Assembly: GCF_023277925.1 (NCBI RefSeq)
Contig: NZ_CP063832.1
Coordinates: forward strand, 124,001 to 188,000
Direction of reading: 5' to 3'
DNA length: 64,000 bases
Source of the DNA: Pseudomonas entomophila
GTDB taxonomy: Bacteria > Pseudomonadota > Gammaproteobacteria > Pseudomonadales > Pseudomonadaceae
The position numbers and the translations under genes were made by a program. The notes under the pieces are model-generated. The model made no database searches and was not told the DNA's origin. It worked only from the letters and a program-made list of their open reading frames with translations. Positions 1 through 9,913 of this stretch are shown one piece after another; the first letter of the stretch is position 1, and the number at the start of each line of letters is the position of its first letter.

Positions 1-1265
1 TAGCGCGACCAGGAAAAGCGCGTGAGCAGGGTGGCGGCGATGGCGATGCCGACGCTGCCGCCGAGCTGGCGCATCAGGTTGAGCACGCCGGAGCCGACCG
101 AGATCAGCCCTTGCGGCAATTGGCGCATGGCCAGGTTGGTCAGCGGCACGAAGATCATGCCCAGGCCGAAGCCACGGATGACCAGTGGCCAGAACAGCGT
201 GTCCGGGTTGCTTTGCAGGGTGAACTGGGTGTGCAGGTACATGGCGTAGCCGTAGATCAGGATGCCCAGGCAGATGAACACCCGCTCGTCGATACGGTTC
301 TCCTGGGACAGCTTGCCGATCACCAGGGTGCTGACGGCGCTGGCCAGCGCGCCGGGGAAGATCACCAGACCGCTTTGGTAGGCGCTCTGCTCGAGCAGGG
401 TCTGCAACAGCAGCGGCACCATGAACAGGGTGCTGTACAGGCCGAAACCCACGCAGAACGCGCAGACCGACCCCAGCAGGAACTCGCGGTGGGCGAACAG
501 CGACAGGTTGACGATCGGGTTGGCGACTCGCCGCTCCCAGTAGCAGAACCCCGCCAGGCCGAACCCCGACAACAGCAGGCACAGCACGGTGAGGTCCGAC
601 TCCAGCCAGTCCCAGTGCTCGCCGCGCTCCAGTAGAATCTGCAGGCTGCCCACCCCAAGGGCGAGCAGGATGAACCCGAGATAGTCGATGCTCTGCGGGC
701 GCCGCTCGTGGCGTGAATCGTCCACGCACAGCCAGGCCAGCAGCAGGGCCAGCGCGCCGATCGGCAGGTTGATCAGGAAGATCCAGTGCCAGGAAAACGC
801 ATCGATCAGGTAGCCGCCCACCGATGGGCCCAACGTCGGCCCCATCATCACCCCGACACCGTACACCGCCATGCCGGCGCTGACCTTCTCCTTGGGGAAC
901 ACGTCGTAGATGATCGCCTGGGAGATCCCCAGCAGGCCGCCGCCGGCCAGGCCCTGGACCACCCGGCACAGCACCATCTGCCACAGCTCCACCGACAGCG
1001 CGCAGCCCAGCGAGGCGACCACGAACACGGCGGACGACACCAGGTAGTAGGCGCGCCGGCCGAACCAGGCCGACAGCCAGCCGCTGGCCGGCAGGATCAC
1101 CACGTTGGCGACGATGTAGCCGGTCGACACCCAGGAGATCTCGTCCACCGACGCTCCGTAGCTGCCCATCAGGCTGGGGATCGCGACGTTGACGATGGTC
1201 ACGTCGAGCAGCTCCATCATCGAGATCAGCGTGACCGTCAAGGCCACCAACCAGGGTGATTTCAT
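1..1265 (-). CDS. MFS multidrug exporter, DHA2/EmrB family (3' end outside window)
   Basis: This is the inner-membrane proton-coupled drug exporter of an EmrAB-type pump. The frame stays open from an ATG at 1265 to the left edge, about 421 codons. The N-terminus (MKSPWLVALTVTLISMMELL) and the following DVTIVNVAIPSL stretch are typical of the 14-helix DHA2 group, and many hydrophobic segments follow, including a GPTLGPSVGGYL stretch (motif C type). Its start overlaps the stop of the HlyD gene by 4 bases (ATGA), so the two are translationally coupled. As last visible gene of the operon it probably exports the pathway product or gives self-resistance. No outer-membrane factor is visible, so the pump may use one encoded elsewhere or beyond the edge. 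The transported substrate is inferred only from context. Confidence 0.9.
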   Translation of the reverse strand, partial: MKSPWLVALTVTLISMMELLDVTIVNVAIPSLMGSYGASVDEISWVSTGYIVANVVILPASGWLSAWFGRRAYYLVSSAVFVVASLGCALSVELWQMVLCRVVQGLAGGGLLGISQAIIYDVFPKEKVSAGMAVYGVGVMMGPTLGPSVGGYLIDAFSWHWIFLINLPIGALALLLAWLCVDDSRHERRPQSIDYLGFILLALGVGSLQILLERGEHWDWLESDLTVLCLLLSGFGLAGFCYWERRVANPIVNLSLFAHREFLLGSVCAFCVGFGLYSTLFMVPLLLQTLLEQSAYQSGLVIFPGALASAVSTLVIGKLSQENRIDERVFICLGILIYGYAMYLHTQFTLQSNPDTLFWPLVIRGFGLGMIFVPLTNLAMRQLPQGLISVGSGVLNLMRQLGGSVGIAIAATLLTRFSWSR

Positions 1266-2329
1266 AGGGTCTGGCCCTTGTCGTCACGGGTGTCGACCTC
1301 GACGAACACGCTCATGCCCTGGCTGATGGCGTCCTTCAGCCCGGCGGGCAATTCCTTGAACTCGATGCGCGTCTGTACCCGCTGCACCACCTTGGTGAAG
1401 TTGCCTGTGGCGTTCTCCTGGGGCAGCAACGAGAAGCGCGCGCCCGTGGCCGGCACCAGGCTGTGCACCACGCCTTCGAAGGTCTGGCCGGGGAAGGCGT
1501 CGACGCTGATCCGCGCCGGTTGGCCGACCCGCACGCGGCCGATCTGGGTCTCCTTGAAGTTGGCCACCACCCAGACGTGATCGGTGCTCACCAGGCTCAG
1601 CAGTTTCTGCCCGGCCACCACGAACTGCCCGGGCTGCACATCCTTGTGCACGATGAAGCCGGCCCGTGGCGAGGTCTGTCGGGTGTCTTGCAGGTTGATG
1701 CGCGCCAGGGCCAGCTCGGACTCGGCGGCCTTGATGCGGTATTCCTCCACCTTGAGTGCCGCCTGGTTGGCCAGGGTGCCCTCACGGGCGGCGTTGGAGT
1801 TGTCGCGCGCGCCCTGCAATTGGTGGCTCAGGGCGCTGTAGCGGGCGCGCGCGGCTTCCAGGTCCTGGGTGCTGACCACACCCTGTTGGGCCAGGCGCTG
1901 GGTGCGCCGGTAGTCGCTGTCGGCCTGTTCGACGTTTGCCACCAGCTGCCCGATCATGGCCTTGGCGGCCTGGCTGCGGGCGACGGCGCCGCGCACCTGG
2001 CTGTCCATCAGCCCGGGCATGCCGCCCTGGCCAGTGGCTACCAAGGCGCCGAGGTAGTTGGCCTCGGCCCGCTCCACACGCTGGTGGTATTCATCCTCGC
2101 GCACCTGGAACAGCAGGTCGCCTTTGCCTACCCGAGTGTTTTCGCGCACGGGTACCTGGACCACCACGCCGCTCAGCTTGGCGCGGATCGGGATGATGAT
2201 CCCTTCCACTTCGGCGTTGTCGGTGCTGACGTACTGCCGCGCATACTGCCAGCGCTGCCAGCCCAGCAGCGCCAGGCCCGCGAGCACCGCCGAGCAGACC
2301 GCCAACTTGGCATGCTTGCCTTTCAACAT
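1262..2329 (-). CDS. HlyD/EmrA-family membrane fusion protein
   Basis: Periplasmic adaptor (355 aa) that links the adjacent DHA2 permease to an outer-membrane channel. There is one N-terminal membrane helix (residues ~8-24), then a lipoyl/barrel-sandwich half motif (STDNAEVEGIIIPIRAKLSG), a long alpha-helical hairpin, and the EmrA hallmark near the C-terminus (GARFSLLPQENATGNFTKVV). The ATG at 2329 is preceded by GAGG at good spacing; the open frame continues further upstream, but that stretch has no adaptor-like sequence. The stop overlaps the permease start. A 73-base gap separates it from the diiron enzyme gene, but the strand and order fit one operon. Confidence 0.92.
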   Translation of the reverse strand: MLKGKHAKLAVCSAVLAGLALLGWQRWQYARQYVSTDNAEVEGIIIPIRAKLSGVVVQVPVRENTRVGKGDLLFQVREDEYHQRVERAEANYLGALVATGQGGMPGLMDSQVRGAVARSQAAKAMIGQLVANVEQADSDYRRTQRLAQQGVVSTQDLEAARARYSALSHQLQGARDNSNAAREGTLANQAALKVEEYRIKAAESELALARINLQDTRQTSPRAGFIVHKDVQPGQFVVAGQKLLSLVSTDHVWVVANFKETQIGRVRVGQPARISVDAFPGQTFEGVVHSLVPATGARFSLLPQENATGNFTKVVQRVQTRIEFKELPAGLKDAISQGMSVFVEVDTRDDKGQTL

Positions 2330-2402
2330 GGCATACACCCTCGTTCGTGTTGCAAGGGGACAGGGACCCTTGCCCGCCGCAGCGGTGGGCAAGGGCATGG
2401 GT

Positions 2403-3203
2403 TCACACGGCGGCGGCGACGCTCGCCTGGCGGGCCTTGTGCGTCGCGCGCTGGTCGAGCTGTTCGAGTACGCCCTGCCACAGCAGCGTGCGGGCGACCA
2501 GGGCGTCGCGCGCGCTGTGCACCAGTTCTTGCTGCTGCTCTGGCTGGTCGACGATCTCGGCGATGATCCGCTTGGCCGCCGGGCCGTGGTCGTCGCCATC
2601 CATCTCGATGTGGCGCTTGAGGTAGTAGGTCAGCATCGGCACGTTCGACTCGTCGATCGCCCATTGCTCGAGCAGGCGGCCAAACATGTCGGGGATGATG
2701 TCTTCGCGGCCGAAGAAGAAGTACGCCAGCACCTGCACGGTCGAGCCATTCAGGGCCACGTCCAGGGTCTTGCTGACGAACACCCGGGCCGGCGCTGGAA
2801 TGTCGGCGCTGTCCAGGGCATGGGCCAGGGAAGTGCCGGCCTGCAGCAGGGCCTGGAAGTGGCGGAACGGCCCGGTGTCGGCGCCGATCTCGTCCATGGC
2901 CTGCAGGTACAGCTCCAGGTGGCTGATGAAGCCGCCGCCCGGGCGCTCGTCGGTTTCCTCGCCGGTGACGATCTCGTTGATCAGGCGCGCGGCCAGGGTG
3001 TGGCGCGGTGGCAGCCAGGGCAGGTCGACGCAGGTCAGGTCGCGCTGGATGCGCTTGAGCAGGGTCATGAAGTCCCAGACGGCGAACACGTGGTTCTCCA
3101 TCAGCAGGCGGACATCCTCCACTGTGCTGATGCGGGCGAACAAGGGGTGTTCCAGCAGGGTGCGGCGTTCATGCTGGATCAGGTTATCGACTTCGAAGGA
3201 CAT
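2403..3203 (-). CDS. DUF3050 family, haem-oxygenase-like diiron enzyme
   Basis: A 266-residue all-helical protein of the DUF3050 group, which belongs to the haem-oxygenase-like diiron oxidase/oxygenase fold. Candidate metal ligands are spread as expected: E36 and H38 (ENHVFAVWDF), E77 (NEIVTGEE), H95/E97 (SHLELY), E167 (FGRED), and H198, D205 and H206 (KRHIEMDGDDHG). Characterised members of this fold use O2 to desaturate, cleave or hydroxylate amine, amino-acid or fatty-acid substrates; no specific reaction can be assigned here. The ATG at 3203 has GGAG six bases upstream. An in-frame ATG at 3215 is possible, but the GGAG would then lie inside the gene. It follows the desaturase gene with a 40-base gap. 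Confidence 0.8.
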   Translation of the reverse strand: MSFEVDNLIQHERRTLLEHPLFARISTVEDVRLLMENHVFAVWDFMTLLKRIQRDLTCVDLPWLPPRHTLAARLINEIVTGEETDERPGGGFISHLELYLQAMDEIGADTGPFRHFQALLQAGTSLAHALDSADIPAPARVFVSKTLDVALNGSTVQVLAYFFFGREDIIPDMFGRLLEQWAIDESNVPMLTYYLKRHIEMDGDDHGPAAKRIIAEIVDQPEQQQELVHSARDALVARTLLWQGVLEQLDQRATHKARQASVAAAV

Positions 3204-3243
3204 ACTCGGCTCCATGAGTGTGATTGTCGTGTGTTGGGGCATT

Positions 3244-4215
3244 TCAGTGTTCTTGTGGGGCCTGCTGCGCAACCGTCTGCCAGGTGCCGGAGTAGGGGAA
3301 GCGCGCCTGGCAATAGCGCAAGGCGCCGAAAAAGCGGGGCTCGAGCAGCGCCCGGCGGCCTTCGTACCAGCCGCTGGCCAGCAGTTGCCGGTGCAGCTGC
3401 GGCAGGCGCCAGCACGGCACCCGTGGGTACAGGTGGTGTTCCAGGTGGAAGTTCGAGCCCAGGTGCAGCAGGGTGCTCATCAGGTCGGTGCGCGAACGGG
3501 CGACCGGCTGCTCGACACCGACGTCGAAGGCATGCTCCTGGTAGGCGTTGAGCGCCGACACCAGCAAGGCGACCAGCAGGCAGGCCAGCAGGGCCGGCAA
3601 CAGCACCGGCCAGCGCATCACCAGCCACAGCCAGAACAGCGGCCACAGCACCTGGCAGGCCAGGTTGAACCTGGCCAGCAGGCGGATCTGCCCGGCCGGC
3701 AGCGGCAGCGCGCCTTCGACCTTGGCGCCGGGCAGGGCCAGGCGCAGGGTCTGCAGCAGGTAGCGCGCGGTGGCATGCAGGCGCGACACCAGCAGCCGGG
3801 TCGCGGCCAGCCGGTAGCGCCGCAACAAGCGCCAGTCCGGGTCCTTGGGGCCGCCGTTGTAGCGGTGATGCTGCCAGTGGTCGACGAAGTAGCCGGTGGC
3901 GCAGAAACCGCACAGCAGCGAGCTCAGCAGCACCGCCAGCAGGCAACTGAGCAGGCGGTTGTGGCTGAGGTTGAAGTGCAACCCCTCGTGCCCGAGGATG
4001 CCTTGCACGAACAGGCCGTAGCCGGCCGGCAGCAGCAGCGGCCAGGCCAGCAGCCACGCCCAGGGCGCCTGTTCGGCGGCCACCACGAACAAGGCCAGGG
4101 GCACGCCGAACAGCAGCAGCGCGTAGCCGATCACCAACGCCGATTCCAGCGCCGATGGCGTGAGCAGGCGGCGGTCCGGGCGCAAGGTGGGCTTGTCCAG
4201 CGGCAGGTGCTTCAT
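3244..4215 (-). CDS. Membrane fatty acid desaturase / hydroxylase
   Basis: Integral membrane non-haem diiron enzyme of 323 aa. All three histidine clusters of the family are present: HEGLH (76-80), HWQHH (113-117) and HLEHH (257-261), with the extra YQEHAF element at ~225-230. Hydrophobic stretches before the first box, between the second and third boxes, and around residues 185-222 are the expected membrane hairpins. Members insert double bonds in, or hydroxylate, acyl chains or terpenoids at the cytoplasmic face. The start is supported by GAGG upstream and lies 10 bases after the SDR stop. Substrate is unknown; in this operon it probably acts on the aliphatic part of the product. Confidence 0.9.
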   Translation of the reverse strand: MKHLPLDKPTLRPDRRLLTPSALESALVIGYALLLFGVPLALFVVAAEQAPWAWLLAWPLLLPAGYGLFVQGILGHEGLHFNLSHNRLLSCLLAVLLSSLLCGFCATGYFVDHWQHHRYNGGPKDPDWRLLRRYRLAATRLLVSRLHATARYLLQTLRLALPGAKVEGALPLPAGQIRLLARFNLACQVLWPLFWLWLVMRWPVLLPALLACLLVALLVSALNAYQEHAFDVGVEQPVARSRTDLMSTLLHLGSNFHLEHHLYPRVPCWRLPQLHRQLLASGWYEGRRALLEPRFFGALRYCQARFPYSGTWQTVAQQAPQEH

Positions 4216-4225
4216 CGGCCTGGCC

Positions 4226-5053
4226 TCAGTCGATCAGTTCGGGCTTGAGCGCCAGTTGCCCGGCCTTGCTCAAGCTGCGCAGGCGCAGGCCGATGAAGGC
4301 GTCGACCAGGCTCGGCAGCCAGCGCGCGGTGTACATCGCCACGCTACCGAGGAAGGTCAGGCCACGGTTGCGCAGGCCGTGCTTGAGGCAGGCCCGCAGC
4401 AGCCCGTTGCTGGCGTCGTCGAGATTCTCCTCCAGCGACAGCAGCACGCGGTCACCCCGCTTGAAGCTGACCAGGCGCTTGACCGACAGCCCCACCCGCT
4501 CGGCCGGGTCGTGGATGGCGGTGTCGATGAAACCGGGGAACACCGTGACCACGTCCAGTTGCCCCGGGTACTGCATGCGCAGCACGTCGGAGTAAGCGCT
4601 CATGGCGCGTTTGCTGGTGGCATAGGCGGCGACATAGGGCGCGTTGACCAGGGCGAACAGCGAGGACACGTTGACCACCTTGCCGTGGGTGCGCAGCAGC
4701 GCCGGCAGGAACCGCGCGGTCAACTGCCAGGGCGCCAGCAGGTTGACTTCAAGCGCGCGGCGCACTTCATCGTTGACCCCGGTTTCGCCACGCTCGAGGG
4801 TGAGCACGCCGGCGTTGTTCACCAGGATGTCGATGTCGCCGAAGCGCTGCTGGATTGCATCGACGGTCTCGTTCACTCGGGCCTGGTCGCACAGGTCGAG
4901 CTGGAAGTAGGCGTCGAAGTCCACGGCGGCCTGCGGTTCGAGGCGATCGATGCCGATCACCGTCGCGCCCTGGCGCTTGAGTTTGCGCGCCGTTTGCAGG
5001 CCGAGGCCGCGCGCCGCGCCGGTCATGACGACGATCTTGTTGTGCAGTTTCAC
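4226..5053 (-). CDS. Classical SDR oxidoreductase
   Basis: A 275-residue NAD(P)-dependent short-chain dehydrogenase. It shows the cofactor motif TGAARGLG (11-18), NNAG (79-82), N104, and the catalytic S130/S131-Y144-K148 set (YATSK). The C-terminal ~80 residues extend past the Rossmann core and are basic and hydrophobic, suggesting membrane or lipid contact, as in SDRs acting on long-chain substrates. It begins with GTG at 5053, preceded by AGGGAG; the GTGA overlaps the stop of the acyl-CoA dehydrogenase-like gene, so translation is coupled. A role as ketone reductase or alcohol dehydrogenase in the pathway is inferred. Confidence 0.9.
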   Translation of the reverse strand: MKLHNKIVVMTGAARGLGLQTARKLKRQGATVIGIDRLEPQAAVDFDAYFQLDLCDQARVNETVDAIQQRFGDIDILVNNAGVLTLERGETGVNDEVRRALEVNLLAPWQLTARFLPALLRTHGKVVNVSSLFALVNAPYVAAYATSKRAMSAYSDVLRMQYPGQLDVVTVFPGFIDTAIHDPAERVGLSVKRLVSFKRGDRVLLSLEENLDDASNGLLRACLKHGLRNRGLTFLGSVAMYTARWLPSLVDAFIGLRLRSLSKAGQLALKPELID

Positions 5054-6195
5054 GGGTTGGCTCCCTTGGCGATGCTGAAGGTGGCGGTGTGCAGGTAGTG
5101 GTCGAGGTTGGCCGACATGCTGAAGCGCCCCGGCGGGTGGAATTGCAGGCCGCGGGTGCTGTTCAGCCAGTTGCTGGTGTCGTTGGAGCGGATGAACGCC
5201 AGGCCGCCCAGCATCTGCTGGGCCAGGTCCGAGGCCCGGGCCAGCTGTTGCTCGATGCCGTAGCGGGTCAGCAGCAGGCGCGCCAGCAGGTCGTCCGCGC
5301 CGTCGTCCAACTGCTCGACTTCATGGGCCAGGCCTTCGACGGCGCTCAGGCACAGTTGCAGCTGGCTAGCCAGCTCGACACGTTGCTGGTCGTTCCAGCG
5401 CCGCTCGCCGACCACGGTCTCGGCCATCCCTAAGCAGGCGCCCAGGTAGGTGGCGCAGATCAGCAGCTCGAACCAGACGAAGCCGATGGTCTGCACTTCG
5501 CCCAGCTGCGCCTTGAGCCCGGCCGAGAAGATCATCTTGTCGCTGACGTAGACGTCCTCCAGGCGCAACTCCAGGCTCTGCGCCCCGGCCAGCGCGCTGT
5601 TGGCCCAGAACGGGTGGCGGCTCAGGCCCGGCGCGGAAGCCGGAATCAAGGCGATCATCAGCTCTTCACCCTGGTCGGTGTCGCGGCTGAAGCTGGCGGT
5701 CAGCAAGTCCATGGAACTGGCCAGGCTGCAGGGTTGCTTGCTGCCGTTGAGGCGCACACCGTCGGCCAGGCGCACCGCATCCATGCCGGCATCGAGAATG
5801 CCGCCACCCGGCACGCCCTCGGCGAAGCCCGAGGCCACCAGCAGGCGTTGCTGGGCAATGGCCGACAACAGCAAGCCTTCGGCGCCCGCGCCCTTGGCCG
5901 CCACGGCGACCAGGCTGGCGACGGAGAACTGGTGCATGGTGCTGGCGATCGCCAGCGAGGGCGACAGGGCGCCGATGGCCACCTGCACCCGTACCGCCTC
6001 GAGCGCCGTGGCACCCAGGCCGCCAGCCGCCTTGGGCACCAGCAGGCCCACCGGGCCGGTGCGCTTGAACCAATCCACGACCGGGCTGCCGTGGGCTTCG
6101 CGCTGGTCGAAGGGCAGCTCCGCCAGCAAGCGGGCGAAGCCGGGGGCGAAGTGTTCCAGGGTCTGCCTGGATCGCTGTAGCAATGACAAGGGCAT
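5050..6195 (-). CDS. Acyl-CoA dehydrogenase-fold flavoprotein
   Basis: A 381-aa protein with the three-part acyl-CoA dehydrogenase layout: helical N-domain (PKAAGGLGATALEAV), a beta middle domain (VRLNGSKQPCSLAS; DVYVSDKMIF) and a helical C-domain (QQMLGGLAFIRSN). The C-terminus reads STRGLQFHPPGRFSM and lacks the RYEGT-like segment that carries the catalytic glutamate in typical medium- and short-chain enzymes. It may therefore be a desaturase with a relocated base, or a flavin-dependent monooxygenase of the same fold. The ATG at 6195 has AAGGA eight bases upstream; sequence before it does not resemble the family. It lies 4 bases after the SRPBCC gene. Confidence 0.85.
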   Translation of the reverse strand: MPLSLLQRSRQTLEHFAPGFARLLAELPFDQREAHGSPVVDWFKRTGPVGLLVPKAAGGLGATALEAVRVQVAIGALSPSLAIASTMHQFSVASLVAVAAKGAGAEGLLLSAIAQQRLLVASGFAEGVPGGGILDAGMDAVRLADGVRLNGSKQPCSLASSMDLLTASFSRDTDQGEELMIALIPASAPGLSRHPFWANSALAGAQSLELRLEDVYVSDKMIFSAGLKAQLGEVQTIGFVWFELLICATYLGACLGMAETVVGERRWNDQQRVELASQLQLCLSAVEGLAHEVEQLDDGADDLLARLLLTRYGIEQQLARASDLAQQMLGGLAFIRSNDTSNWLNSTRGLQFHPPGRFSMSANLDHYLHTATFSIAKGANP

Positions 6196-6199
6196 TACA

Positions 6200-6643
6200 T
6201 CAATCCTTGATATGACTGTTCGGGAACAGGCCATTGATGATGGCGCTGATGTTGTCGCGGATCGCCTGGCGGGCCACGGGGTCGAGCATGTCGGCGAGCA
6301 TCGGCATGCCCAGGTCGAAGCAGGAGTGGAAGGCGATGCTGGCGCCCTCGGGCGCTTCGCTGACCTGCCAGTACCCCGAGAAGTGGTCGATGTCGCCGGC
6401 GGTCTGGCGGAAGTGGATGTGCAGGTTGGCGGGGTCGAAGACATCGCGCTCCTGCCACTTGAGAATGCCGCTGTGGAAGTTCACCTCCCAGTTGCTGAGC
6501 ACCTGGTTGTCGTCGATCGATTCGATCTCGATGTTGCGCACCGACTCGCACAGTTGTGGGTACAGGCTGAAGTTGCTGATGGCGGCATACACCTGCTCGG
6601 CGCTCTGGCTGGGAACGTAGGCGTTGAGGCTGACTTCTTTCAT
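6200..6643 (-). CDS. SRPBCC (START/Bet v1-like) protein, aromatase/cyclase-like
   Basis: A 147-residue single-domain protein with the helix-grip pattern of polyketide cyclase/COQ10-type SRPBCC proteins: early helix with SAEQVYAAISNFSLYPQLC, a set of beta strands (NWEVNFHSGILKWQERD), and a long C-terminal helix (ARQAIRDNISAIINGL). The family binds hydrophobic ligands in a deep cavity; some members catalyse cyclisation or dehydration, others carry lipids. The start is fixed by AAGGAG six bases upstream, which itself overlaps the TAA of the aminotransferase gene. In this operon it may bind the aliphatic intermediate or guide ring closure; this is inference. Confidence 0.82.
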   Translation of the reverse strand: MKEVSLNAYVPSQSAEQVYAAISNFSLYPQLCESVRNIEIESIDDNQVLSNWEVNFHSGILKWQERDVFDPANLHIHFRQTAGDIDHFSGYWQVSEAPEGASIAFHSCFDLGMPMLADMLDPVARQAIRDNISAIINGLFPNSHIKD

Positions 6644-6653
6644 GTCGCTCTCC

Positions 6654-7913
6654 TTATTGGGCGAAAGTGCGGGCGAGGGCGGTGGCGAGGCCGTCGAGCA
6701 GCCAGGCCACATCGCTGTCGCTGTACAGCGCGGGCGGGGTCAGGCGGATCACCCGGTGATCGTTGAGCGAGTGGTTGACCACGATGCGCTGGTCGATCAG
6801 GTGCATGACCATGTTGGCGGCCAGCCCGGCGTCGGCGAACTCAAGCCCCAGCAGCAGGCCGGCGCAGCGCAGGCGCACCTGGTCGGCGCGGGGCTGTTCG
6901 CGCAGCACGGCTTGCAGGCCGTTTTGCACCTGTTGGCCCAAGGCTTCGGCCCGCGCCACCAGGTTGTCGCGCTGCATGACCTCCAGCGTGGCCAGCACCG
7001 CGGCCATGGCCAGCGGGTTGGCACCGAAGGTAGTGGTGTGCATCAACGGGTTGCGGTTGAGCGGTGCCTGGATGTCGGGGGTGCAGACCATGGCGCTGAC
7101 CGGCACGCAGCCGCCGGACAGGCTCTTGCCCACCAGTAGGATGTCGGGCACCACGCCTTCGTGGTCGCAGGCCCACCAGCGCCCGGTGCGGCCCAGCCCC
7201 GACTGGATCTCGTCGGCGATCAGCACCGCGTTGTGGCGGTCGCACAGGTCGCGCACCTGGCGCAGGTAGCCGGGCGGCGGCAGGATCACGCCGGCTTCGG
7301 CCTGCACCGGCTCGAGGATCACGCAGGCCCGCTCAGGCAACCCTTCGAGGGTGTGACGCAGCGCCTCGACATCGCCAAACGGCACGAACTGGCTCTCGCC
7401 CAGGCGGTTGGCGAACGGCGAGCGATAAAGCTCCCGGCCGGTCACCGCCAGCGCGCCCAAGGTCTTGCCGTGGTAGCCGCCGACGGTCGAGATCACGTGC
7501 TTGCAGTCGTTGAGCCAGGCCAGCTTGAGCGCCGCCTCGGTGGCCTCGGTGCCGGAGCTGCAGAAATACACGTACTGCAAGTCGCCGGGGCAGACCGCGG
7601 CCAACGCGGCGGCGGCCCGGGCCTGGTAGGGGTTGAGCAGCAGCTTGCTGGCCAGCGGATGGCTGTGCAGCTGGTGGCTGACCCGCTCGAGCACGTCGGG
7701 GTGCCCGTGCCCCAGCAGGAACACGCCGTAGCCGCCGGCGTCCAGGTAACGATTGCCCTGGCTGTCGAACAGGTACACCCCGGCGCTCGAGGCCTCGATC
7801 GGCAGGTTCATCATCGAGGCCAGGCGGGCGTAGCCGGCGTTGACGTGATCACGGTACTGCTGCTGGATCAGCGCCGAGTCAAAAACATCGGGCATTGTGC
7901 TGAAGCTGTTCAT
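6654..7913 (-). CDS. Class III PLP-dependent aminotransferase
   Basis: A 419-aa fold-type I aminotransferase of the acetylornithine/omega-amino acid group. It shows the phosphate-binding SSGTEA (119-124), the PLP-contacting D234/E235 (ADEIQSGLGRTG) and the Schiff-base lysine K263 (LLVGKSLSGG), followed by TTTFGANPLA. Class III enzymes move amino groups onto aldehydes or ketones away from the alpha position. Next to a thioester-reductase-like gene (5-base gap) it would fit conversion of a fatty aldehyde into a primary amine, the chemistry assigned to the reductase/aminotransferase pairs of the tambjamine and prodigiosin pathways. The reaction here is inferred; the family call is firm. Confidence 0.93.
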   Translation of the reverse strand: MNSFSTMPDVFDSALIQQQYRDHVNAGYARLASMMNLPIEASSAGVYLFDSQGNRYLDAGGYGVFLLGHGHPDVLERVSHQLHSHPLASKLLLNPYQARAAAALAAVCPGDLQYVYFCSSGTEATEAALKLAWLNDCKHVISTVGGYHGKTLGALAVTGRELYRSPFANRLGESQFVPFGDVEALRHTLEGLPERACVILEPVQAEAGVILPPPGYLRQVRDLCDRHNAVLIADEIQSGLGRTGRWWACDHEGVVPDILLVGKSLSGGCVPVSAMVCTPDIQAPLNRNPLMHTTTFGANPLAMAAVLATLEVMQRDNLVARAEALGQQVQNGLQAVLREQPRADQVRLRCAGLLLGLEFADAGLAANMVMHLIDQRIVVNHSLNDHRVIRLTPPALYSDSDVAWLLDGLATALARTFAQ

Positions 7914-7918
7914 CGTGC

Positions 7919-8992
7919 TCAGGCCTCCAGGGCGACGTCGGCGCGGCGTTGCGCCGGGGTGGGCACTTTCAGCATGCGTTGCATGGCCGAGAGCTTGGGC
8001 GACAGGCGAGCGAGGGTGAGCGCCAGCTCTTCGCGCGGCGAGCGTTGCGCCAGGCGCCTGGCCGGCAGCAGCTGGGCCAGCGAGCTGGGGAGTGGCTGCA
8101 GCAGGCTGGCGTAGCGGCACAGCTGGGTGGCCCGGCCAAGGGCCGCGCGGATGTTTTCCTCAAGCGCAGGCAGGAACACCGGGCGCACCAGGCGCTCGTA
8201 GATGTCGGGGTTCATGCAGCGCGGGCGCTGGAACGGCTTGCCCTGCTGAGCCATCTCGGCGCACATCAGGTCCAGCAGCGTGCGGATGTCCAGCGCTTGC
8301 GGGCCATTGCTGAGGAAGTAGTCGTCGCCGATCAGGCGCTGGTCCAGCGCGCTGACGATGGCCGCGGCGGCGACGTCGCGGGCGATCACGTCGACCCGCC
8401 CGTCCTCGGGGCACGGGATGATCGGCAGGTAGCCCGACATCATCAGCCCCATGGTCAGGTGGAAGCCTTGCAGGATGGGCATGTGCCCGGTCTGGCTGTC
8501 GCCGATGATGATCGACGGGCGGAAGATCGACACCGGGACACCTGCCTCGCGCACCAGGGTCTCGGCCTGGCGCTTGACGATCTCGTAGGGCGTCGAGGGC
8601 ATCACGCCGGGGTGGTAGTCGCACGGGTGGGTGAACGCGGTGCTGATGTGGTAGAGCGGCACCTGGGCGTCGCGCACCAGCTGCAGCACCTGCTCGGTAC
8701 CCTGGTAATTGACCGAGAACACGGCTTCGGCGTGGCCGTCCAGGCGGGTGATGGCGGCGCTGTGGATCACCCAGTCGATGCGTGGCAGCAGGGCCAGGTA
8801 GTCGGCGGCGCTCAGGCCCAGGCGTGGTTGGCAGATGTCGCCGCGCAGGGTCTCGACGCCGGGGTGGCGAATGGCGCTGCGCCGGGTCAGGCAGATCAGG
8901 TCGTAGCGCTCGGCCAGTTGGTCAATCAGGGTATCGCCCAGTACGCCGGCACCGCCGGTAAGGAAAACAGTCATCCGTGAGGGACCGGACAT
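7919..8992 (-). CDS. NAD-binding_4 (acyl/thioester reductase-like) extended SDR
   Basis: A 357-residue Rossmann protein with TGGAGVLG (12-19), the HSAAITR and NYQGTEQVL stretches, ISTAF, Y136/K140 (YEIVK), and RPSIIIGDSQTGH. This combination is typical of the thioester-reductase domains of NRPS/carboxylic-acid reductases and of fatty acyl-CoA reductases, but here the domain stands alone without a carrier. It would release an acyl thioester as aldehyde, or it could be an epimerase-like oxidoreductase. First gene of the operon; AAGGAG nine bases before ATG 8992. A later ATG at 8974 has no Shine-Dalgarno sequence. Confidence 0.85.
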   Translation of the reverse strand: MSGPSRMTVFLTGGAGVLGDTLIDQLAERYDLICLTRRSAIRHPGVETLRGDICQPRLGLSAADYLALLPRIDWVIHSAAITRLDGHAEAVFSVNYQGTEQVLQLVRDAQVPLYHISTAFTHPCDYHPGVMPSTPYEIVKRQAETLVREAGVPVSIFRPSIIIGDSQTGHMPILQGFHLTMGLMMSGYLPIIPCPEDGRVDVIARDVAAAAIVSALDQRLIGDDYFLSNGPQALDIRTLLDLMCAEMAQQGKPFQRPRCMNPDIYERLVRPVFLPALEENIRAALGRATQLCRYASLLQPLPSSLAQLLPARRLAQRSPREELALTLARLSPKLSAMQRMLKVPTPAQRRADVALEA

Positions 8993-9178: not shown

Positions 9179-9913
9179 CTACTGCTGATTCTTGAACGAA
9201 TCGCTCGTATTGCGTAGCACCACGGCGACGCGGCTGGGCGACATCCCGACCATGCGCCGCATCATGCGGGTGAGGTGGGCCTGGTCGGCGAAACCGCCGG
9301 CCATGGCCGCGTCGCTGAGGCTGGCATCGTGGGCGAGGGCGTGGCAGGCACGCTCGAGCTTGCGCCAGATGATCCATTGCGAGAGGGGTACGCCCATGTG
9401 GCGGGTGGCGAAGAAACGCAGGCGCGGGCTGGAAAGGCCTACGGCGCTGGCTGCGCGGGAGATTGCGCCGATCCCCGCGCAATCGTCGCGCAACAGGTGC
9501 AGGGCATTGGAGAGCCGGGGGTCGAAGGCATCGTCGGTCACCAGCAGGCGCTCCAGGGTCTCGACCACCTCCTGGAAGCTGTCGGCCTGGCGGATGCAAT
9601 TGACGATCTCGGCGCTGGCCACTGCCGTGCCGCTGGCGTCGACCAGGGCATTCAGCGCCCGGCCCAGTGGCGCGTCGGGGTAGAGATAGAGGAACGCGAT
9701 GCGGTCGGGGCTGGGCAGGGAACGGTGGTCGACGAAGGGGCCGATGATCACCCCGGCCCCGGTCAGCGTGCGGCCGGCGAGCTCCACGGTGATGTCGCCG
9801 CGCAGGCCGATGCAGAGCTGGATGGCAACATGGGCATGGGCGCTGGTCTGGTCGGCCTTGCCGGTATAGCCCAGCCAGTAGTCACCGAAAGTCACCTCGC
9901 CATCCCATCTCAT
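9179..9913 (-). CDS. AraC-family transcriptional regulator
   Basis: A 244-aa regulator with a cupin-like N-terminal half (HAHVAIQLCIGLRGDITVEL) and a C-terminal double helix-turn-helix (ISRAASAVGLSSPRLRFFAT; SLSDAAMAGGFADQAHLTRM), ending with the typical FRRMVGMSPS-like element (MRRMVGMSPSRV). It lies immediately upstream of the biosynthetic operon on the same strand and is separated from it by an intrinsic terminator, so it is the likely pathway-specific activator. The ATG at 9913 follows a GGGAC stretch. Its effector is unknown. Confidence 0.92.
   Translation of the reverse strand: MRWDGEVTFGDYWLGYTGKADQTSAHAHVAIQLCIGLRGDITVELAGRTLTGAGVIIGPFVDHRSLPSPDRIAFLYLYPDAPLGRALNALVDASGTAVASAEIVNCIRQADSFQEVVETLERLLVTDDAFDPRLSNALHLLRDDCAGIGAISRAASAVGLSSPRLRFFATRHMGVPLSQWIIWRKLERACHALAHDASLSDAAMAGGFADQAHLTRMMRRMVGMSPSRVAVVLRNTSDSFKNQQ

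Follow-up and report, generated by a model that had tools for sequence, protein, structure and literature searches.

Which compound is made by an operon in which enzymes of fatty amine formation stand beside a relative of HamA? Such an operon lies at the left end of a 64,000-nucleotide stretch of Pseudomonas entomophila (bases 124001-188000 of its single-contig 5.76 Mb genome, contig G000:C1; below, the window). It encodes a thioester reductase (TR), an aminotransferase (AT), an SRPBCC protein, an acyl-CoA dehydrogenase-like flavoprotein (ACAD), a short-chain dehydrogenase/reductase (SDR), a membrane desaturase, a DUF3050 enzyme and an EmrAB-type pump. A hydroxylamine-type cassette is paired here with a HamA relative. 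The operon is tentatively read, at a little under an even chance, as making and exporting an amine with a lipid tail and an oxidised nitrogen, the likeliest form being an alkyl or alkenyl N-nitrosohydroxylamine (diazeniumdiolate).

Gene content of the operon

Nine genes run on the minus strand from window position 8992 to 1 in the order TR, AT, SRPBCC, ACAD, SDR, desaturase, DUF3050, EmrA, EmrB. Their junctions are gaps of 5, 10, 4, 10, 40, and 73 bases and two 4-base overlaps. An initial reading made from the DNA letters alone (the sequence-only reading) had described nine co-directional genes of these families and in this order, with 4-base overlaps or short gaps, and Pfam and NCBIfam matches and the coordinates bear this out (gaps of 4-73 bases). 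It had also advised looking left of base 1 for more genes. The EmrB gene stops 307 bases beyond the left edge of the window, at G000:C1:123694, and shares 28 bases with a tenth gene, which encodes an OEP/TolC-type protein (G000:C1:122378-123721). Because of this overlap, the operon is counted as ten genes. The features within the window are as follows.

7919..8992, minus strand: TR, stand-alone NAD(P)-dependent thioester/acyl reductase (NAD_binding_4, 116.6 bits; nearest PDB chain MxaA; YEIVK motif)
6654..7913, minus strand: AT, class III aminotransferase (Aminotran_3, 295 bits; nearest PDB chain putrescine aminotransferase; GKSLSGG motif)
6200..6643, minus strand: SRPBCC protein, lipid-binding/cyclase-like (Polyketide_cyc, 59 bits)
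5050..6195, minus strand: ACAD-like flavoprotein, probable VlmH/Ady3-type amine N-hydroxylase (from the tree and an AlphaFold model closest to DszC, DnmZ, and KijD3)
4226..5053, minus strand: SDR (adh_short, 129 bits; homologue BV82_4240 in strain P482)
3244..4215, minus strand: membrane fatty-acid desaturase family (FA_desaturase, 105.7 bits; HEGLH, HWQHH, and HLEHH boxes at residues 76, 113, and 257)
2403..3203, minus strand: DUF3050 haem-oxygenase-like diiron enzyme of the HamA/MgoB/PvfA family, candidate for the N-N bond step (DUF3050, 274.8 bits)
1262..2329, minus strand: EmrA-type periplasmic adaptor (HlyD_D23/HlyD_3; TIGR00998, 218 bits, below cut-off)
1..1265, minus strand: EmrB-type MFS permease, running on left of the window (MFS_1; TIGR00711, 395 bits, above cut-off)
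9179..9913, minus strand: AraC-family regulator upstream of the operon (conserved in 15 of 15 named Pseudomonas loci)

NCBIfam matches of the AT include putrescine aminotransferase and PigE, every listed match being below its cut-off. The ACAD has a single Pfam match, Acyl-CoA_dh_M, at 28.0 bits (under the cut-off of 33.3). A terminator-like hairpin follows the AraC gene at 9112-9097 (two such sites were found, 0.8 expected by chance).

Is the ACAD-like protein a desaturase or an N-hydroxylase?

A pattern scan for the ACAD in a contig collection covering 84,980 species gave 280 relatives. The best 80 of these were analysed, with stretches of up to 10 kb on each side. A tree of 57 rows, drawn from 50 of the 80 loci, six others and the window but including neither VlmH nor TamT, places the window ACAD inside a clade of 51 rows with support 100/100. 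This clade includes ACADs from cassettes with Vlm-type genes and from cassettes with nitric oxide synthase (NOS). Six ACADs from other Pseudomonas contexts are outside it, three of which come from clusters judged by eye to be tambjamine-like ligase/amine clusters. The best PDB matches of a profile of 27 ACAD sequences are DszC monooxygenases. The AlphaFold model (mean predicted confidence, pLDDT, 87.6) is closest in fold to DszC and to the nitrososynthases DnmZ, KijD3, and the one from Micromonospora (3mxl), with TdsC and MsuC also among the nearest. Judged by its homologues and modelled fold, the ACAD is probably a VlmH-type amine N-hydroxylase that would give an N-alkylhydroxylamine, and not a TamT-like desaturase. 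Because of its clade and its nearest folds, an N-oxidised product is likelier than a plain fatty amine, and formation of an N-hydroxylamine intermediate is considered likely. On this view the "acyl-CoA dehydrogenase" would oxidise nitrogen and not desaturate the tail.

The sequence-only reading had the ACAD desaturate the tail of a fatty amine as in tambjamine. In that case the pathway would end in a fatty amine or imine, plain or desaturated, whose chain is oxidised by DUF3050 and the desaturase. Residue E243 of the ACAD is invariant in 27 of 27 sequences and aligns with Q in DszC; it may be a dehydrogenase-type base. Dehydrogenases also follow closely behind monooxygenases in the fold search, where the first chain titled dehydrogenase ranks 17th, about 2 Z below the monooxygenases, and the ranking is a lead, not proof. 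These points speak against N-hydroxylation, as do long-branch warnings in the tree (L041, L076, and others), the missing VlmH and TamT rows, and the lack of a flavin reductase gene inside the operon. Weak NCBIfam matches of the ACAD to the prolyl-carrier dehydrogenase RedW and to PigA, and ACAD-like proteins (30-34%) in ligase/amine clusters of other Pseudomonas, also fit a plain amine. Yet the ligase/amine-cluster proteins fall outside the window clade, the best sequence and fold matches are monooxygenases, and in azodyrecin the double bond is assigned to the membrane desaturase Ady9, with a VlmH-type N-hydroxylase also present (PMC9379638). A plain amine or imine is therefore regarded as improbable. 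Of the sequence-only reading, the tambjamine-type role of the ACAD is weakened, while the path from acyl thioester to aldehyde to amine, followed by chain remodelling and export, is supported; azodyrecin synthesis is proposed to begin in the same way (PMC9379638).

Two other kinds of Pseudomonas locus were seen among the ACAD relatives. L036, L037, and L039 combine by eye an acyl-ligase-like protein, a fused AT (about 870-970 aa), an ACAD, a membrane protein, and a desaturase, with a carrier-like open reading frame in L037 and L039 as well; they represent a different probable fatty-amine pathway. L041:9355-15852 has an ACAD, a long AT, and a VlmO-like protein with YID, NGAH, and HLFGD, a possible azoxy cluster.

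Modules on a common cassette

Which genes accompany the ACAD elsewhere? Modules around it were tabulated by tblastn with references chosen by eye and partly checked by Pfam; neighbouring gene calls are crude, and shadow open reading frames (such as families F42 and F70) were ignored. AT, SRPBCC, and ACAD are found together in 70 of the 80 best ACAD loci. The other ten are without AT or SRPBCC in the stretch examined, some of them on short contigs. Among the 70 cassette loci, one or more of VlmA, VlmO, and VlmB occur in 45, DUF3050 in 17, and NOS in seven; one locus has none of these, and no locus combines two kinds. TR is replaced in some Vlm-type loci by a protein that, judged by eye, resembles an aldehyde dehydrogenase.

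Residues D51, H82, H110, and D114 of VlmO are reported to be essential (PMC11705231), and 18 of 18 gene-called VlmO homologues retain all four. One VlmA-type protein checked is LPG_synthase_C and one neighbouring flavin reductase is Flavin_Reduct in Pfam. For these reasons the Vlm-type loci look genuine. One VlmO-type protein scanned had no Pfam match, and the VlmB-type label rests solely on position beside VlmA/VlmO.

VlmA, VlmO, and VlmB gave no tblastn match in the stretches of any of the 17 DUF3050 loci. The sole VlmA match in the source genome, 25% identical in an 881-codon frame, is probably MprF and was rejected; for VlmO and VlmB the rest of the source genome was not searched. NOS had no match in the source genome, in a search run without a positive control, whose empty result therefore carries no weight. 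In principle an azoxy lipid could also form with no VlmA/O/B involved, for instance if two alkylhydroxylamine or nitroso units were to couple, as spontaneous azoxy dimerisation of aliphatic hydroxylamines was envisioned for malleobactin D (PMC9379638). This is very unlikely here, since the DUF3050 loci show no such genes in the stretches examined, the one VlmA-like match in the genome is probably MprF, and DUF3050 would be left without a role.

Two NOS proteins are NO_synthase in Pfam (544.8 and 524.8 bits). The NOS cassettes are found in Streptomyces/Salinispora (L108, L111, L115, L119) and in cyanobacteria (L059, L061, L062) and have no VlmA/O/B match; they are candidate lipid diazeniumdiolate clusters. 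Of the three NOS loci inspected gene by gene (L062, L111, and L115), L062 also has FA_desaturase and an extended Epimerase-type SDR, and L115 has FA_hydroxylase; classical SDR matches (31-32%) occur in L108, L111, L115, and L119. Like the window operon, L062 and L115 each combine an SDR-superfamily gene with one for a membrane desaturase or hydroxylase, so DUF3050 appears to stand where NOS stands. In Lysobacteraceae L076, one strand carries AraC, desaturase, SDR, TR, AT, SRPBCC, and ACAD, followed by envelope genes that by eye include an RND-like exporter, and then DUF3050. The L076 desaturase is 46% identical to its counterpart in the cyanobacterial NOS locus L062; that of the window is more distant. 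In the ACAD tree, neither the NOS nor the DUF3050 state forms a single clade: each requires three changes, at least two of which are forced by well-supported branches. Such scatter is expected if modules have been exchanged.

This would imply a portable TR-AT-SRPBCC-ACAD cassette that makes fatty N-alkylhydroxylamines in Cyanobacteria, Actinobacteria, and Proteobacteria, to which second-nitrogen modules are added interchangeably: VlmA/O/B, giving azoxy compounds, or NOS or DUF3050, both giving lipid diazeniumdiolates. The HamA-type DUF3050 enzyme would then do the work of NOS, generating or transferring an N-nitrosyl equivalent. We offer this general scheme as a possibility, and a rather doubtful one. 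On its debit side, 15 of the 17 DUF3050 loci are Pseudomonas and the cassette rows are not independent. At L064, unrelated genes separate the cassette from DUF3050, which lies about 9 kb off and probably does not belong to it, so that the count becomes 16; L076 is a more convincing DUF3050 cassette than L064. The contrast of DUF3050 and NOS on the same cassette offers a natural comparison for how the diazeniumdiolate of fragin and related signals is made.

The DUF3050 protein

The nearest solved structure to the window DUF3050 is PDB 9vwb, 'HamA, a Heme-Oxygenase-Like Enzyme' (E 1.6e-73 by sequence, E 4.2e-18 by fold), and its model matches HamA, CADD, UndA, and HrmI. Residues E82/E83, H95, E167, H198, D202, and H206 are invariant in 30 of 30 aligned sequences; this E/H/E/H/D/H set, as expected in the helical bundle of haem-oxygenase-like diiron oxygenases, is taken as the putative diiron ligands by analogy with a CADD-based model (PMC4520260). 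When fed preformed diazeniumdiolate, hamA and hamE mutants make fragin and valdiazen, and HamA and HamE are reported to be non-essential for the hydroxylamine intermediates (PMC11659414). HamA therefore acts at or before formation of the N-N bond. hamE is essential for fragin and valdiazen (PMC5878181). No paper on the enzymatic function of HamA was found among the matches listed in open-licence PubMed Central.

Does the pathway end in an N-N bond at all? The amine may be N-hydroxylated, as the same ACAD tree and folds suggest, and, after a further N- or C-oxidation by DUF3050, end as a lipid with an oxime, nitrone, nitroso, nitro, or hydroxamate group. Haem-oxygenase-like enzymes include the N-oxygenase HrmI and the fatty-acid enzyme UndA, both of which are fold matches of DUF3050, and the family also occurs in contexts without recognised N-oxygenases. 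Such an outcome is unlikely, if less so than a plain amine, since the closest solved relative is HamA and since DUF3050 replaces NOS or VlmA/O/B, which are second-nitrogen modules, on the same cassette.

Several observations on DUF3050 and its presumed partners weigh against a diazeniumdiolate. The window copy is outside the pvf clade in a tree of the window, nine of the 17 DUF3050 loci (L064 was dropped as a fragment), 19 pvf and 19 other sequences, and 15 of 120 listed proteins. Among 20 chosen non-cassette copies from Pseudomonas, 18 are in pvf-type clusters and two are not. Sixteen loci from elsewhere in the class (L154-L169) show neither PvfB nor PvfD nor any cassette gene, and two of them have a weak (28-29%) nonribosomal peptide synthetase (NRPS) match. 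An mgoB insertion merely lowers mangotoxin (PMC3298696). The SRPBCC protein, tried as a PvfD orthologue, shows no significant similarity to the PvfD-like protein of the source genome (best BLAST E 1.1; E 0.0046 in an unfiltered hidden Markov model run against two sequences only), and this assignment is not supported.

DUF3050 is present in 89 of 149 sampled Pseudomonas genomes. Since other class members carry it among unrelated genes, DUF3050 alone was rejected as a marker of N-N chemistry. In the tree, P0138, named MgoB of Burkholderia ubonensis by a source, groups with the window copy.

Further DUF3050 contexts were observed. Two Pseudomonas copies outside both pvf and cassette adjoin a methyltransferase-like gene (L217:7085-8849, L218:7008-8645). 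Neighbours identified by eye in other class members are siroheme-synthase-like (L155) and rubrerythrin-like (L158), which suggests a wider role of the family. The ACAD/DUF3050 pairs P0023/P0137, P0014/P0135, P0017/P0130, P0009/P0136, and P0002/P0122 hint at further co-location, since the two members of each pair agree in the length of the longest contig (24449, 18975, 17388, 5792, and 31540, respectively). The source genome has its own pvf/mgo-type cluster at G000:C1 about 4516310-4522016, with DUF3050, an AurF-type N-oxygenase, an A-T-R NRPS, and an SRPBCC protein (by similarity and by eye).

Proposed pathway and comparison with known systems

From the gene content, linkage, families, and module distribution, all of which are observed, we infer each chemical step as follows. 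TR would reduce a fatty acyl-CoA or acyl-ACP from primary metabolism to the aldehyde, and AT would convert this to the fatty amine. The ACAD-like flavoprotein would N-hydroxylate the amine, using reduced flavin from a reductase encoded elsewhere. The membrane desaturase and the SDR would modify the chain, perhaps next to the nitrogen, in line with the azodyrecin proposal. The DUF3050 protein, a HamA-like diiron enzyme, would supply or install a second, oxidised nitrogen. The SRPBCC protein may carry a hydrophobic intermediate, EmrAB-TolC would export the product, and AraC would regulate the operon.

In the making of tambjamine and prodigiosin amine tails, the same logic of a reductase followed by a class III aminotransferase is used, with the enzymes fused or carrier-bound. 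The operon differs in having no ligase, carrier, or pyrrole genes. A closer parallel is azodyrecin (ady), for which the proposal runs from acyl to aldehyde to amine to hydroxylamine by the same enzyme types (a dehydrogenase, a transaminase, and VlmH-type N-hydroxylation) and has Ady9 add a 1,2-olefin (PMC9379638); both systems have a desaturase. Unlike azodyrecin and valanimycin, the operon lacks VlmA, VlmO, VlmB, and a flavin reductase; what it has in their stead is DUF3050, an SDR, and a tripartite pump of the Gram-negative type.

Fragin/valdiazen (ham), mangotoxin (mgo), and pvf share with the operon a DUF3050 enzyme, an SRPBCC-superfamily protein, and a thioester-reductase function, and the window DUF3050 is 49-50% identical to the source genome's own PvfA-like protein. 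These systems use an amino-acid substrate, whereas that of the operon would be fatty acyl, and none of the ten operon genes is an NRPS or an AurF-type N-oxygenase. Their DUF3050 proteins are in a clade separate from the window copy, and their SRPBCC proteins are not significantly similar.

Lipid diazeniumdiolates that bind metals, with their rare N-N bond, would, if this reading is true, be an unusual class of pseudomonad antibiotic. Nitrosoxacins originate from Streptomyces and have alkenyl tails. They are cited among the diazeniumdiolates that inhibit an iron enzyme (PMC5878181).

Earlier descriptions and activity of the cluster

The operon is a real, conserved, and already noted orphan cluster. 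The sequence-only reading held that no described cluster has such a gene set, a claim that two papers (PMC8154892 and PMC4219678) contradict and that is rejected. The first lists 'cluster 17' of P. donghuensis P482 (BV82_4236-4245), which agrees with the window operon in its ten genes, their order (TR being listed as epimerase/reductase), and its efflux system. The authors' software divides that cluster into an operon of 7 genes and another of 3, no more than a vague connection to polyketides is suggested, and the product is given as unknown (PMC8154892). The ACAD of P. donghuensis HYS is 69% identical to that of the window. The second paper describes the same ten genes plus AraC in P. putida W15Oct28 and names a VlmH-like isobutylamine N-hydroxylase; inactivation failed and the role was left hypothetical (PMC4219678). 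That cluster (L045) is 78-89% identical to the window operon over all 11 proteins. In the part of PMC4880745 that concerns it, it appears merely as an antiSMASH region. The resemblance to VlmH has thus been on record since 2014, while the further chemistry proposed here, like any product for this cluster, was not found among the matches listed in open-licence PubMed Central literature.

A conditional antibacterial role is demonstrated for the P482 homologue (PMC8154892). On glycerol, mutation of the SDR gene (BV82_4240) abolished activity against Dickeya solani and cut that against P. syringae by about 90%, and the EmrA mutant kept about 40% of activity on glucose and about 30% on glycerol (PMC8154892). 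Other results from the same source tell against a direct link of cluster and activity: the SDR mutant is unchanged against D. solani on glucose, both mutants have close to normal activity on LB, and pyoverdine gives no peak in the EmrA mutant either, whose defect may thus be indirect. The product is most likely an antibacterial compound. That metal binding by a diazeniumdiolate would fit the iron-related phenotypes of P482 is speculation. With the proposed pathway, an orphan antibacterial cluster of plant-associated pseudomonads gains testable chemistry.

Conservation and distribution

The sequence-only reading had called for a search for conserved co-occurrence across Pseudomonas, and this was found. 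The eleven genes from AraC to TolC keep their order in every one of the 15 named Pseudomonas loci listed (L042-L056), with protein identities of 53-100% (ACAD 60-98%). Because the whole block recurs in order in all of these, the linkage of the genes is not due to chance. The same order is found in five further loci of the genus, at least three of which are genomes already among the 15. The nearest named relative among the matches listed is P. entomophila COR5 (ACAD 98% identical). In evenly sampled Pseudomonas, the ACAD is present at 61% identity or more in only 6 of 149 genomes (source genome included), and the operon is therefore patchy in the genus. Across the phylum, an ACAD match of E 1e-60 or better was present in three of 398 genomes searched, again including the source genome. 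Members of the ACAD family are found outside the cassette as well, in Trinickia loci L057 and L222. Left of the operon, L009:4099-8733 carries by eye an Rhs/YD-repeat gene and small downstream genes, likely a polymorphic toxin locus.

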